NCBI GenBank assembly: GCA_934668765.1
Contig: CAKUOH010000023.1
Coordinates: forward strand, 1-35,862
DNA from: an uncultured Helicobacteraceae bacterium
GTDB lineage: Bacteria; Campylobacterota; Campylobacteria; Campylobacterales; Helicobacteraceae
Length of the DNA: 35,862 bases
Direction: 5' to 3'
Shown here piece after piece: positions 1-15,440 of this stretch; position 1 is the stretch's first letter; every line of letters begins with the position of its first letter. The notes beneath the pieces are model-generated. The model was given only the letters and a program-made list of their open reading frames with translations, had not been told where the DNA came from and did not search any database. The position numbers were made by a program, and so were the translations under genes.

Positions 1-966
1 TTTTAAATTTGGATTGCCACGAATCACTGCGTGATTCTAGCAATGACAGAATTTTAAGCCCATCCCTTGTTGGATGGTGATTCACTTTATCTTTCCCCCT
101 CCCTTGCGGATGTGAATTTCTTTTATTTTCCCCCTCCCTTGCGGAGGGGGATTAAGGGGGTGGGTATATCCTAACGAATCGTCATTGCGAACATTCGCAA
201 GAATGCAAAGCAATCCACACAAAATCTATCATTCTAATGCAATTTTAAGTCGCCAAAGAATCTAAAAAAATCAAAGAAAATTTATAGATTGCCACGACTT
301 ACCTAACGGCAAGTCTCGCAATGACAGAATGGTAGATTTGCACTTGATTCGTGGATTGCTTTGCCACGAATCGCTTTTGCGATGCAGGGTTTGCAAGCAA
401 ATCTCGCAATGACAGCGTGGGACAGATTTGCTATAATTTGCTAAAACAATTCTCACAATAACGAAATTCTACCCACCCCCTTAATCCCCCTCCGCAAGGG
501 AGGGGGAGAAATGCAAAAATCTCCGCAAGGGAGGGGGAATCAAATGCGAAATTCTCCGCAAGGGAGGGGAATTTAAAGAATTACCACGCGCAATGGAGGG
601 GTAAAATAAAGTTTGGATGCCACAAAAATCCTATGGATTTGCAGGGTTCGTAAGCGAATCTCACAATGACGAAAAATTTGGATTGCCACGACTTACCTAA
701 CGGAAAGTCTCGCAATGACGATTTGTTTTTTTACAAAAGCGCAGATTCTCGCAATGACGACAAGTTTAGATTGCCACGAAAAACTGCGTTTTTCTCGCAA
801 TGACGAATTTACTTTTGATTCTTTTTTTAGATTGCCACAAATCGCTTTTGCGATGCAGGGTTTGCAAGCAAATCTCGCAATGACGACAAGTTTAGATTAC
901 CACGAATTTGTAGAATTGCATACCAAAATATAAATTGCAAAGCGCAAATGCACAAAATGCGCATCT
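1..966. repeat. Gene-free cluster of palindromic repeats
   Basis: I see no credible gene here. The stretch is built from two short repeat families. Family A has outer arms GATTGCCAC and CGCAATGAC around a variable palindrome; copies lie near 10–51, 180–219 (inverted), 287–327, 352–416, 613–671, 679–720, 768–806 and 829–884, with fragments near 745–760 and 892–908. Family B is a GC-rich element containing CCCTCCCTTGCGGAGGG or its complement, at 130–165 and 471–509, with shorter pieces near 94–110, 521–537 and 553–570. A third module, CCCATCCCTTG plus its partial inverse, lies at 59–77. Small ORFs in this stretch only translate the repeats. The cluster sits downstream of the pilus operon and could end its transcription. 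Confidence 0.85.
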
Positions 967-11019: not shown

Positions 11020-12027
11020 ATGAAAAATAAAAAATATTTTGTAGAATTTGGGATAGATTCACTTGAATCTAAAACTTCCCCTTCCCTTGCGAATCTAGCA
11101 AAAGCCCCAAAGGGACAACGCGCGGGATTTACTATGATAGAAATCGTCTTTGTCATAGTCATCACAGGGCTAGTCGCTGTCGCAGGTGGCAATGCAATCG
11201 TGCAGATTTTACAAAACTACACTTTGCAAAAAATGTATGCTAAAACGGAGATGGATTCTGCATCCGCGATTCGCCAAATCTCTAATTACTTGCAAAATTC
11301 CGTGTGGGATTCGATTGCATTTGGTGGGACTATACCCATTTCGGAGGTATCCACCGCCAATGATGGCAAACTCAATGTAAGCAACAACAAACAGAAATTA
11401 TCTTTCATAGAAAAGGATTTAGAATCACAAAATGGCGCAAGTGATAATAATGGCAATATGATACCATATTTCGCAGGATTTATAGATTTGAATAAATCTA
11501 ATGCAAAGGTTATCGCAAGCCAAACTAACAGCGATGATTTAGAAAAGGCTTTCGGCAATAGGACAGGCATAGCGTTGTATTTTCCTTTTATCAATGTAGG
11601 CACTAGCACAAGCGTCCAAGAAAAATATCATCAAAGCAACATTCAAAATAATAAGGCACTTTTTCAGGTAAATAGCGCAAGTAATAATCATACCGTAGGC
11701 AAAAAAGCCTTTACTTTAAATAATGAGCCACAGCAAATAGGCGATATAGCAATGTTAGTAAATGCCTATCCAAGCTATTTGCAGTTAGCCGATAAAAATG
11801 ACACAAAGATAAACAATGAAGTTTTTGAAAAGGGCGATTTGGTATTTTTTCGCAGAGAGCCGGGCGACAATGCGTGGAAGTCTATTAGAATCGCACGAAA
11901 AGTCTCTAATCTGCACTTTTGGACGGAATCTAGTTCAAGTTTGATTCGTGTGCGAATCTGCTTTGAAGCTGGGGTAGTTAAAAGCGTAATGGATGAATTT
12001 TGCAAAGAGGGGATAATAATGCAATGA
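11020..12027 (+). CDS. Prepilin-like protein (GspJ/PilW-type minor pseudopilin 2)
   Basis: A 335-aa prepilin-like protein. A 34-residue leader ends at RAG^FTMIEIVFVIVITG, a canonical site with Gly-1, Phe+1 and Glu+5. The large C-terminal part includes a VFFRREPGDNAWKSIRI-type strand region and one late Cys pair. Its size and place, second of three, fit a GspJ/PilW-like minor pseudopilin that primes assembly at the pilus tip. GGAGG (11008–11012) sets the start. Its stop overlaps the start of the next gene (ATGA at 12024–12027). Oddity: the leader codons SPSLANL come from a stretch that matches repeat family B (11076–11092). Confidence 0.86.
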   Translation: MKNKKYFVEFGIDSLESKTSPSLANLAKAPKGQRAGFTMIEIVFVIVITGLVAVAGGNAIVQILQNYTLQKMYAKTEMDSASAIRQISNYLQNSVWDSIAFGGTIPISEVSTANDGKLNVSNNKQKLSFIEKDLESQNGASDNNGNMIPYFAGFIDLNKSNAKVIASQTNSDDLEKAFGNRTGIALYFPFINVGTSTSVQEKYHQSNIQNNKALFQVNSASNNHTVGKKAFTLNNEPQQIGDIAMLVNAYPSYLQLADKNDTKINNEVFEKGDLVFFRREPGDNAWKSIRIARKVSNLHFWTESSSSLIRVRICFEAGVVKSVMDEFCKEGIIMQ

Positions 12028-13013
12028 AAAAGATAGAATTGAATGTTAAAGAAAACGAAATTGTTATTGTAAGATTCGCAAAGCAAACCAAAGCAATCCG
12101 CAAAAAAACAAATAGATTGCCACGACTTGACTGCGTCAAGTCTTGCAATGACAAAAAAATAAATGTGTGCAAGGAAGCATCTTGTGATGGATTGCAAACT
12201 AAATTTATAGAAACTAATATACGCGGAAGTATTTTGAGTGAATGTTGTAAAACACAAAACAGCATTCGCGCGGAAGCATCTTGCGATGGATTGCAAACTA
12301 AATTTATAGAAACTAATATACGCGGAAGTATTTTGAGTGAATGTTGTAAAACACAAAACAGTATTCGCGCGGAAGCATCTTGCGATGGATTTGTGGGTTT
12401 TCAAGTGCGGATGCGCGAAAATAGGACATATAGTCCATTGAGCGAATCCGAACGCAGAATCCCGCAAATACGCGCAAGAGGCAATCGTGCGGGATTCGGT
12501 ATGATGTTTGCTATAATCATTACGATTTTAGTCGCCACTCTTGGCGTCCTAGCGGTAAAATTTAGCACTCAAACGCTAAATACCACCACAAACGAATACA
12601 TAGCCATTCAGTTAGATTTATACTTAAACTCCACTGCTGAATTAGCGGTTTTGTATGTCCAGCGCAATGGATTTGTGTGTAATGAAAATATAGATTGCGA
12701 TTTAAGCAAAAATGGCACTAATGGCAAAAGGGCAAATGTAACCGCACCCATAGAGAAATATATCGCCTATGGCGAAAATAAAGAGTATAGTTTCAAATAC
12801 AAAATCACGCCACTAGATAACTATGATAGATTCGACACTAGCGTATATCAAGATGTCGCTGGTGATGCAGTCTGCAATGAAACACAAGGCGCAAAACGGT
12901 GCTTTAAAGAAGAGACGAAAAACGCCTTTGTGCTAGATATTTCAGGGAGCGTAACGAATCCCATCACAAATCAAACTTTGCGCGTAACCAAACGGCAAAT
13001 TATCAAACCATAA
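12024..13013 (+). CDS. GspK/PilX-like prepilin with a very long, repeat-built leader
   Basis: From ATG 12024 (overlapping the upstream stop as ATGA) this is 330 aa. The prepilin-type site is RAG^FGMMFAIIITILVATLG, with Gly-1 and Phe+1 but no Glu+5, as in GspK-class tip pseudopilins. The mature part is about 175 aa with three Cys pairs (FVCNENIDC, DAVCNETQGAKRC). The leader before the site would be about 156 residues, against 20–34 in its two neighbours, and is made of DNA repeats: a family A palindrome at 12114–12152 and a 33-residue unit repeated in tandem at 12174–12371. An internal ATG at 12411 would give a normal 28-residue leader, but it has only a weak ribosome site. Either the repeats lie in the gene, or they form an untranslated gap that happens to stay open. 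Confidence 0.75.
   Translation: MKKIELNVKENEIVIVRFAKQTKAIRKKTNRLPRLDCVKSCNDKKINVCKEASCDGLQTKFIETNIRGSILSECCKTQNSIRAEASCDGLQTKFIETNIRGSILSECCKTQNSIRAEASCDGFVGFQVRMRENRTYSPLSESERRIPQIRARGNRAGFGMMFAIIITILVATLGVLAVKFSTQTLNTTTNEYIAIQLDLYLNSTAELAVLYVQRNGFVCNENIDCDLSKNGTNGKRANVTAPIEKYIAYGENKEYSFKYKITPLDNYDRFDTSVYQDVAGDAVCNETQGAKRCFKEETKNAFVLDISGSVTNPITNQTLRVTKRQIIKP
12114..12152 (+). repeat. Family A palindromic repeat inside the prepilin leader
   Basis: Outer arms GATTGCCAC and TGCAATGAC flank an inner perfect stem GACTTGAC–TGC–GTCAAGTC (12124–12142). It is open in the frame of the prepilin gene. A more diverged, inverted copy may lie just before it (12060–12099). Confidence 0.8.
12174..12389 (+). 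repeat. 99-bp tandem repeat (two units plus 18 bp)
   Basis: Units at 12174–12272 and 12273–12371 differ at only a few positions (for example TGT/TGC at the Cys of EASCDG), and the first 18 bases recur at 12372–12389. The unit is 33 codons long, so copy-number change keeps frame. Each unit contains a hairpin GAATGTTGT … ACAGCATTC with one G–U pair, and encodes three cysteines. Confidence 0.92.
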
Positions 13014-14105: not shown

Positions 14106-15440
14106 TCAAGTTGCTTCTACCCACAGCACCATTTCATCGGCTATGAAGTAGTTTGTCGCATAGATTTTGCCGTTTTGTGCGCGAATCTTATCGCTTTGCA
14201 AAAGCAAATTTAGTCGTTCTTTGTTTGTGATTATCGCGCTATCTACGCCCACTTCGCTACGAAATCCTAAAAAAATCTTTTCTAATCTTATGTCGCTAGG
14301 GCTTAAAGATTCGCGTTTTATGGCACAAGGATTGCGTAAATACGCGCCAAAGTCGCCTTGCTTGTAGATTCGCGCCACTTGCAAACCACCCTGCGAATCA
14401 AAATCCGTGATTTTCCCCACCGCACCAAGCCCCACGCCGATATAATCGCGATATGCCCAATAGCCCAAATTATGACGGCTTTTTTGCGATTTATCACGCG
14501 CAAAATTTGAGACTTCGTATTGCGTAAATCCGCGCAAATCCAAAAACTCTTTTAGCTCGTAGCACAGGGAGGATTCGCGTGTGGGATTTTTGCGCTCCCT
14601 AAAAAACGCGGAGTTTTTATCAATGCTTAAAGAGTAACACGAAATATGCCCCACGCCCAAATTTAGCGCGTTTTCAAGCTCAAAGCATAACCGTTTAGGC
14701 GAATCTAAAATCGTCCCATAAATCAAATCAATGCTTGTTTTCACGCCACATTTTAGGGCGGATTCGATAAAATCACGCGCGATTTTTGGGCTATGATTGC
14801 GCTCTAAAAGTCGCAGTTTATCCGCATAAAAGCTCTGCACACCGATACTAAAACGATTCACGCCTAAATCCTTAAATGCGTTTAGCGTCTCAATGCTTGA
14901 AACATTTGGGTTTAGCTCCATTGTGATTTCGGTATGTGGGGCGATTTTTGGCTCTAAAATGCGAAAGATTTGCTCATAATCACTAGGATTCAAAGTATTT
15001 GGAGTGCCACCACCGATATAAATAGAATGGAATTTTTTGGATTTTACCCACCCCCTTAATCCCCCTCCGCAAGGGAGGGGGAGAGCTGAAAGATTGCCAT
15101 CCACAAGGGATGGGAAATTTTTGGATTTTGCAATTTTTGTGCGATTCGTAGAATCTAATCTATTGCTACAAGCAATCGAAGTATTTGCGGTGTGGCTTTG
15201 CACGAAGTTTGCCTCATTGCTAGGAAATAAGACTGATTGTCTATTGACGACGCAATGGGGCAAACTTCGTGTGAATCGCATACCCAAAGACAAATTGTCC
15301 CACGAATCCAGCTCATTTTTCAAATCCGCGCATAAGCAATCCAAATATTTTTGCTTAAATTCTAGCATATTTGTTAGCGAATTAAACCCGCAGTATCCGC
15401 ACTTTGAAGTGCAAAATGGTATGTGAATATAGAGCAACAT
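14106..15440 (-). CDS. hemW: HemW-like radical SAM protein with in-frame repeat insertion
   Basis: Radical SAM protein of the HemN/HemW family (HemW is a heme chaperone; older annotations say oxygen-independent coproporphyrinogen oxidase). The [4Fe-4S] motif is C10-x3-C14-x2-C17 followed by Gly-Phe, as in HemW. The SAM-binding IYIGGGTPNTL follows at 140–150, then NPNVSSIETL, GVQSF and a C-terminal HemN domain. Length is 444 aa against roughly 350–380 in the family. The excess is at residues 48–133, which separate LKNELDSW from KKFHSIYIGGGTP; relatives have only a few residues there. That insert is encoded by repetitive DNA (15046–15116 and a long hairpin at 15201–15271). Location next to nudH matches H. 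pylori HP1226. Activity with such an insert is unproven. Confidence 0.9.
   Translation of the reverse strand: MLLYIHIPFCTSKCGYCGFNSLTNMLEFKQKYLDCLCADLKNELDSWDNLSLGMRFTRSLPHCVVNRQSVLFPSNEANFVQSHTANTSIACSNRLDSTNRTKIAKSKNFPSLVDGNLSALPLPCGGGLRGWVKSKKFHSIYIGGGTPNTLNPSDYEQIFRILEPKIAPHTEITMELNPNVSSIETLNAFKDLGVNRFSIGVQSFYADKLRLLERNHSPKIARDFIESALKCGVKTSIDLIYGTILDSPKRLCFELENALNLGVGHISCYSLSIDKNSAFFRERKNPTRESSLCYELKEFLDLRGFTQYEVSNFARDKSQKSRHNLGYWAYRDYIGVGLGAVGKITDFDSQGGLQVARIYKQGDFGAYLRNPCAIKRESLSPSDIRLEKIFLGFRSEVGVDSAIITNKERLNLLLQSDKIRAQNGKIYATNYFIADEMVLWVEAT
15046..15116. repeat. Composite repeat (family B plus CCCATCCC module) within hemW
   Basis: 15046–15084 is identical over 39 bases to 471–509 in the intergenic cluster, and 36 bases match the complement of 130–165. 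Next to it, 15092–15116 is a copy of the CCCATCCCTTG module seen at 59–77, in the same relative order. On the hemW strand it encodes FPSLVDGNLS … LPLPCGGGLRGWV. Confidence 0.9.
15168..15271. repeat. Lead sequence plus 19-bp hairpin within hemW
   Basis: The arms 15201–15219 and 15253–15271 are complementary over 19 bp with one G–U-type mismatch, around a 33-base loop. The preceding 33 bases (15168–15200) match 23644–23676, downstream of metK, at about 25 of 33 positions. Both lie within hemW codons absent from its relatives. Confidence 0.75.

Follow-up and report, generated by a model that had tools for sequence, protein, structure and literature searches.

A HemW loop apparently formed by two unrelated palindromic repeats, and an in-frame hairpin family dispersed among Helicobacteraceae genes

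Why does the HemW of an uncultured Helicobacteraceae bacterium carry so many residues between its Fe-S cysteine motif and its GGGTP strand, and what is the DNA that encodes them? The gene lies in what we call the window, the whole stretch of 35,862 nucleotides analysed here, and its product scores 262.4 bits against the TIGR00539 HemW profile (curated cut-off 205.4), with HemN (1olt, 79.5 bits) as its nearest solved relative by sequence. Among 71 sequences in which both motifs could be placed (P0001 and the listed homologues), the spacing from CxxC to the GGGTP strand is 37-43 residues in 59 and 47-144 in the remaining 12; in the window HemW it is 126 residues, so that some 83-89 residues are extra, close to the figure of about 85 in the original prediction. 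The insert is in frame and both flanking motifs are intact, as was also proposed. Used as a query on genome contigs, HemW found only three loci, all of them distant, and the whole window is without an Rfam match at gathering thresholds. The extra residues consist of two repeat-derived parts that differ in age and in family (Table 1), and it is very probable that they are the read-through of two unrelated, non-autonomous palindromic repeats lodged in one loop.

Table 1. Coordinates in the window of hemW, its repeat-derived parts and the related repeats
Feature	Position	Strand	Remark
hemW, 444 aa	14106..15440	-	CxxxCxxC and GGGTP motifs intact in translation
Young insert, 84-bp addition, 28 residues	15034..15129	-	absent from P0003-P0009
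Module B, hairpin CCCCCTCCCTTGCGGAGGGGG and tail ATTAAGGGGGTGGGT	15045..15084	-	40 bases identical to 470-509
Module C (CCCATCCCTTGTGGATGG), small palindrome	15097..15114	-	as at 60-77
Element E, 106 nt, one long hairpin, ends TTTGGGTATGC and CACACCGCAAAT	15183..15288	-	
E inner stem arm, 20 nt	15201..15220	-	95% complementary to 15252-15271
E inner stem, other arm	15252..15271	-	
Intergenic repeat cluster, A-type (CGTC-like), B and C units	1..960	.	
Second in-frame case, A-type unit	12112..12153	+	ORF 12024-13013

A 12-bp direct repeat marks either edge of the younger part, which contains modules C and B; its two copies, at 15034-15045 and 15118-15129, are identical. The entire insert had been equated with the composite repeat of the intergenic cluster, and this stands for about 84 of its 255 bases but fails for the segment encoding residues 48-104, whose common stretches with the rest of the window reach 15 bases at most. 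The details of the correspondence shift slightly as well: the 39 identical bases that were reported are genuine and extend to exactly 40; for the CCCATCCCTTGT module the match is one of 12 bases, at 59-70; and the modules follow the same order as in the copy at 59-166, but not as in the copy with the 40-base match, which has no adjoining CCCATCC module. Full copies of B in the cluster lie at 132-164 on the forward strand and 472-504 on the reverse strand. Inclusion of the 12-bp AAAATCCAAAAA as part of B is unsupported by these two copies, and AATCC-like stretches come after B at some other loci. A target-site duplication as a general rule for B was also dropped, because the flanking sequences are not alike from locus to locus and other repeats often adjoin the tail. 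Judged by eye, the flanks of other B loci have no general counterpart of the 12-bp repeat in hemW.

The younger part is absent from several close relatives. A protein database search returned 7982 homologues, of which the best 120 were listed, and 40 of 121 sequences were aligned. P0002, which represents 18 member sequences and therefore speaks against an assembly artefact, differs from the window HemW by one substitution and a start one residue shorter. Seven of the closest HemWs (P0003-P0009), with 94-96% identity over aligned residues, keep the older segment (residues 48-104) but are without precisely those 28 residues that the young module encodes. At the protein level the young module thus has the clean borders that had been anticipated, and the contrary possibility, that close relatives would all be equally long, is contradicted. 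In a tree of the protein core (40 sequences) the B-bearing P0001 and P0002 are surrounded by HemWs that lack B, and the remaining HemWs with B (P0014, P0018, P0019, and P0020) fall in a sister clade; B requires at least three changes on this tree, two of them forced by well-supported branches, each of which could be a gain or a loss. When 17 HemW loops were compared with the repeat cluster of the window, translated in all six frames, and with 40 shuffles, the loops of P0001, P0014, P0018, P0019, and P0020 beat all 40 shuffles and also stretches elsewhere in their own protein, with narrow margins for P0019 (50 vs 46) and P0020 (43 vs 42); the other 12 of the 17 had no match to the cluster in this six-frame comparison. 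P0018 carries B in another reading frame, and at least two frames are therefore tolerated at about the same place. Judging from these sequences, the HemW loop took in repeats more than once among the relatives. We also note that P0022 has a different segment, ADFLLEADKRGSPPKSEKRQLLARRGSGAGGAALLRK, which is in frame also in the unrelated P0140, a homologue of the window ORF at 12024-13013, that P0012 and P0015, close HemW relatives, have instead of E a loop segment that is about as long but quite different and has no match to the cluster, and that the HemW frame of genome G173 has, by eye, repeat-like peptides at a C-terminal place.

The older segment folds at z = -6.19, and the copy of element E within it folds at z = -7.35. 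A DNA search with the older segment against 121 Helicobacteraceae genomes gave short matches in eight, two of them in alaS and ilvD. With the shared 42 residues as a peptide query in a six-frame search of 121 Helicobacteraceae genomes, E was found in 22, with a total of 60 matches, 56 of them without an internal stop and 45 in open frames of at least 200 aa; the weaker matches have only 45-55% identity. Of the 29 copies located, 23 are 106 nt long; the hemW copy has the length and ends of the family but an inside that none of the other copies found shares. The pattern formed by the ends has a single occurrence in the window, against none in 100 dinucleotide shuffles; it was matched in 12 of the 121 genomes, none with the inside of the HemW copy, and the reversed control gave 0. 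The HemW of P0014 has yet another E inside, likewise of 40 residues.

Which genes carry E was addressed by comparing ten E-bearing frames with NCBIfam. Those over curated cut-offs are ilvD (L089 and L095), alaS (L094 and L105), guaA with a Tag domain (L091), and glyS (L106); L101, L102, L103, and L113 match just more general or weaker models. The alaS genes of genomes G246 and G409 have 89-94% identity outside their inserts, and each has an empty site where the other is occupied, with E after YYRDDELL in G246 and after GDKGVLLES in G409. A single alaS locus was seen in G246, a genome whose completeness is not given, the other matches being confined to the E region. AlaRS is an essential enzyme, and its E-bearing form is therefore presumably functional. 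A protein database search with the E region gave 123 proteins of suitable length, and most of the 120 listed are alaS, ilvD, and guaA fusions; further Pfam architectures with E are ones that we take to be carB-like, saccharopine-dehydrogenase-like, other tRNA synthetases, and an RNB nuclease. The named sources among the listed matches are Helicobacter (cinaedi, bilis, pullorum, winghamensis, valdiviensis, rodentium, ganmani, marmotae, and others), the sole other name being that of one MAG labelled Candidatus Scatomorpha. An alternative in which slippage and drift simply lengthened a native HemW loop, without any mobile repeat, would be in keeping with the wide variation of loop length in this lineage and with the long loops of P0012, P0015, and P0030, which match no known repeat. 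It is nonetheless contradicted by the 40 bases identical to an intergenic copy, and the sharp presence/absence borders and the appearance of the E ends at canonical spacing in unrelated genes also oppose it, such that we assign it almost no chance of being correct.

E is conserved as a hairpin, and in its pairing more than in its peptide. All seven of the E copies that were folded, that of HemW among them, form the long hairpin (z from -4.63 to -8.92). Pairing was counted in 20 of the 29 located copies, after dropping three identical copies, five that are not 106 nt, and the weak second copy of L106; the hemW copy is outside the 29 and so is absent from the count. With a structure taken from one of the counted sequences, which favours that structure somewhat, 91.5% of cells are paired and 15 pairs are altered on both sides. 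The covariation score was reached by none of 500 shuffles, and with the partner shifted one column along, only 45-49% still pair; further pair types were no more numerous than in the shuffles, 75 of 500 of which reach their count. Over 16 distinct copies, differences at the three codon positions number 962, 544, and 915, with 1209 non-synonymous vs 516 synonymous, and there is therefore no third-position excess; selection on the E peptide at the protein level is unsupported, third positions varying no more than first. A peptide of E or B that is useful to its hosts, for example by providing a contact or a regulated loop, might explain why the length and reading frame of E are kept in most hosts and why second codon positions vary least, but these codon counts oppose it, three copies (L109, L110, and L118) read the middle of E in another frame that is still open, and the hosts are unrelated proteins in which it is the pairing that is conserved instead. 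We regard a useful peptide as very unlikely.

Whether the inserted stretch is present in the mature protein is a related consideration. E and B are both stable hairpins by folding, ribosome skipping at hairpins occurs in other systems, and the stretch could be missing as a result of RNA or protein removal or of such skipping. However, 45 of the 60 copies of E are in phase in a long open frame, which would be unneeded under skipping or RNA removal, and we find this explanation highly improbable. The read-through of the repeats into protein, which we prefer, is compatible with the predicted structure of HemW. The AlphaFold2 model (from 40 sequences) has a mean pLDDT of 79.1, with 277 of the 444 residues at 90 or higher, and residues 54-132 are below 50; the insert is modelled between the first helix (21-51) and the second strand (137-143). 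It is thus predicted as a low-confidence loop off an intact core, and this fits a loose loop outside the core, with the proviso that low confidence is no proof of disorder.

We infer that HemW with the insert still works. The opposite view is that the insert has inactivated HemW, with the gene becoming a pseudogene and its open frame a transient accident, and it draws on three of the closest relatives (P0010, P0011, and P0013) that are deposited from a start inside E and are without the Fe-S motif. But the core and motifs are intact in the window, P0002, and P0003, the core is more than 94% identical in P0003-P0009, and what is apparently the only alaS of G246 bears E. Furthermore, internal-Met starts such as those of P0004-P0009 are also seen in ten insert-free HemWs (P0048 and P0053-P0061) and therefore look like gene calling, and N-terminal truncation was for this reason mostly dropped as a sign of inactivation. 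For P0010, P0011, P0013, and P0029, whose deposited entries start within the insert or close to it, the strains may have a broken frame; inactivation of the window HemW is in our view unlikely.

HemW is not the only protein that includes these repeats. The 96-bp hemW stretch matched 13 of 121 genomes at E-values up to 0.01, G298 and G073 weakly, and had no match in the five nearest-genus genomes. We examined 35 of the 49 places listed for B, the rest being mostly at contig ends, and 16 of the 35 (15 frames) are within open frames of at least 200 aa with at least 60 aa on either side. The clearest host is lysA of G247 (TIGR01048, 475.7 bits), with B at residues 145-158. One Pfam domain spans B in the methylases L045 and L084, and domains lie on both sides of B in the methylases L040, L041, L044, and L081; the frames L036 and L087 matched no Pfam family, and the Pfam match of L071 is to part of folC only. 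We note that restriction-modification methylases are common among the B frames (L040, L041, L044, L045, L081, L084, and L085), several with more than one repeat-like peptide. A-type CGTC units are present in 41 of the 121 Helicobacteraceae genomes, with 0 in the reversed control. Their ends, GTCATTGCGAG and GTGGCAATC, are constant, and the inner palindrome varies by copy and is still palindromic in many of the listed copies. One such unit provides a second in-frame case in the window (Table 1), where it is preceded by a degenerate head-to-head partner and followed by a conserved membrane-like segment. The ORF has no Pfam match and contains at 12173-12370 an in-frame tandem duplication of 99 bp (33 residues), with two units in the window and P0123, one in P0124, and none extra in P0127.

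The best reading of these observations is that the repeats are selfish palindromic elements of the Rickettsia palindromic element (RPE) kind, tolerated in a permissive loop that was hit repeatedly. Short hairpin repeats would spread as selfish DNA, perhaps moved by a machinery acting in trans, perhaps through replication or recombination at hairpins; gene-disrupting insertions would be lost, and open-frame copies in permissive loops would survive. The HemW loop after helix 1 could be one such place, receiving E first and then C and B, with insert peptides that would have no function of their own and an insertion that would be neutral. A likeness to RPEs in frame had been suggested from the outset and is supported, and it extends well past hemW, to other Helicobacteraceae genes with the same repeats in frame. 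In PMC2229807 and PMC3767692, RPEs are described as 105-146 bp long, with a long stem-loop and in frame in conserved protein genes, and R. japonica has different RPE groups at the same loci. E is alike in length, stem-loop, and in-frame siting, a likeness by description, in that it is a hairpin of the ~100-150-nt kind, is in frame in alaS, ilvD, glyS, and guaA, and has element-free alaS sites; B is in frame in lysA, and the C+B insertion of hemW has empty orthologues at the protein level. E differs in that the hosts here are Helicobacteraceae, the named carriers being Helicobacter rather than Rickettsia save for the Candidatus Scatomorpha MAG, and HemW differs in stacking two unrelated families in one loop.

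Other known repeats offer partial parallels. CGTC-tagged REPs, including RPE-4 and RPE-6, are found inside ORFs of many species and often as head-to-head dimers, according to PMC3733652, in which the word Helicobacter is absent. The A-type units of the window share with these REPs the CGTC end, ATTGC stem, and CCA tail, and a CGTC end, AT-starting stem, and CCA tail can be read at 678-720 and in other A-type units. However, the loops described in PMC3733652 are of 4-5 nt, whereas the inner part of the A-type units is longer, with a variable second palindrome, and neither E nor B is a CGTC unit. By their description, Wolbachia palindromic elements are likewise protein-coding palindromic repeats outside Rickettsia. 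Bacterial MITEs (ERIC, RU-2, and RU-3) are short and non-autonomous with inverted repeats, and some are fused in frame to genes, according to PMC2229807. In contrast, neither TA ends nor a constant target duplication was seen for B, and no partner transposase is known.

The obligate intracellular Rickettsiales are the best-known hosts of protein-coding palindromes. In-frame palindromes in Rickettsia and Wolbachia and in-frame REPs in several other bacteria are already known (PMC2229807, PMC3733652, and PMC3767692), whereas searches among open-licence PMC papers yielded nothing relevant on E, on the repeat peptides, or on Helicobacter repeats that are palindromic or in frame. We think it probable that Helicobacteraceae hold an undescribed protein-coding palindromic family, E, of ~106-nt hairpins with fixed ends and length and exchangeable, re-paired stems, spread in frame through core genes, and that the HemW loop is a docking site later given a second repeat family. 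In-frame hairpin families in H. cinaedi, H. bilis, and H. pullorum would offer culturable hosts for testing presence/absence among strains, activity, and spread. If true, the stronger conservation of pairing than of peptide would mean that E is kept as hairpin DNA or RNA, which bears on how such elements, RPEs included, move. Peptides such as CHSERSEES, SPSLAEGARGW, and SHTANTRI, where annotated proteins contain them, may also come from repeat DNA instead of being domains.

Finally, guaA in the nearest genus seems to be a single long frame, of 1547 aa in G204 (L119:2700-7340, reverse strand) and 1185 aa in G244 (L120:1074-4628, forward strand), in which GNAT domains and a Tag glycosylase domain with E separate the GATase from the synthetase domains. 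The junction between Tag and E is seen at nine loci (L091-L093, L096-L100, and L104), and the same GMP synthase architecture is present in the protein database in H. rodentium, H. ganmani, and H. marmotae.
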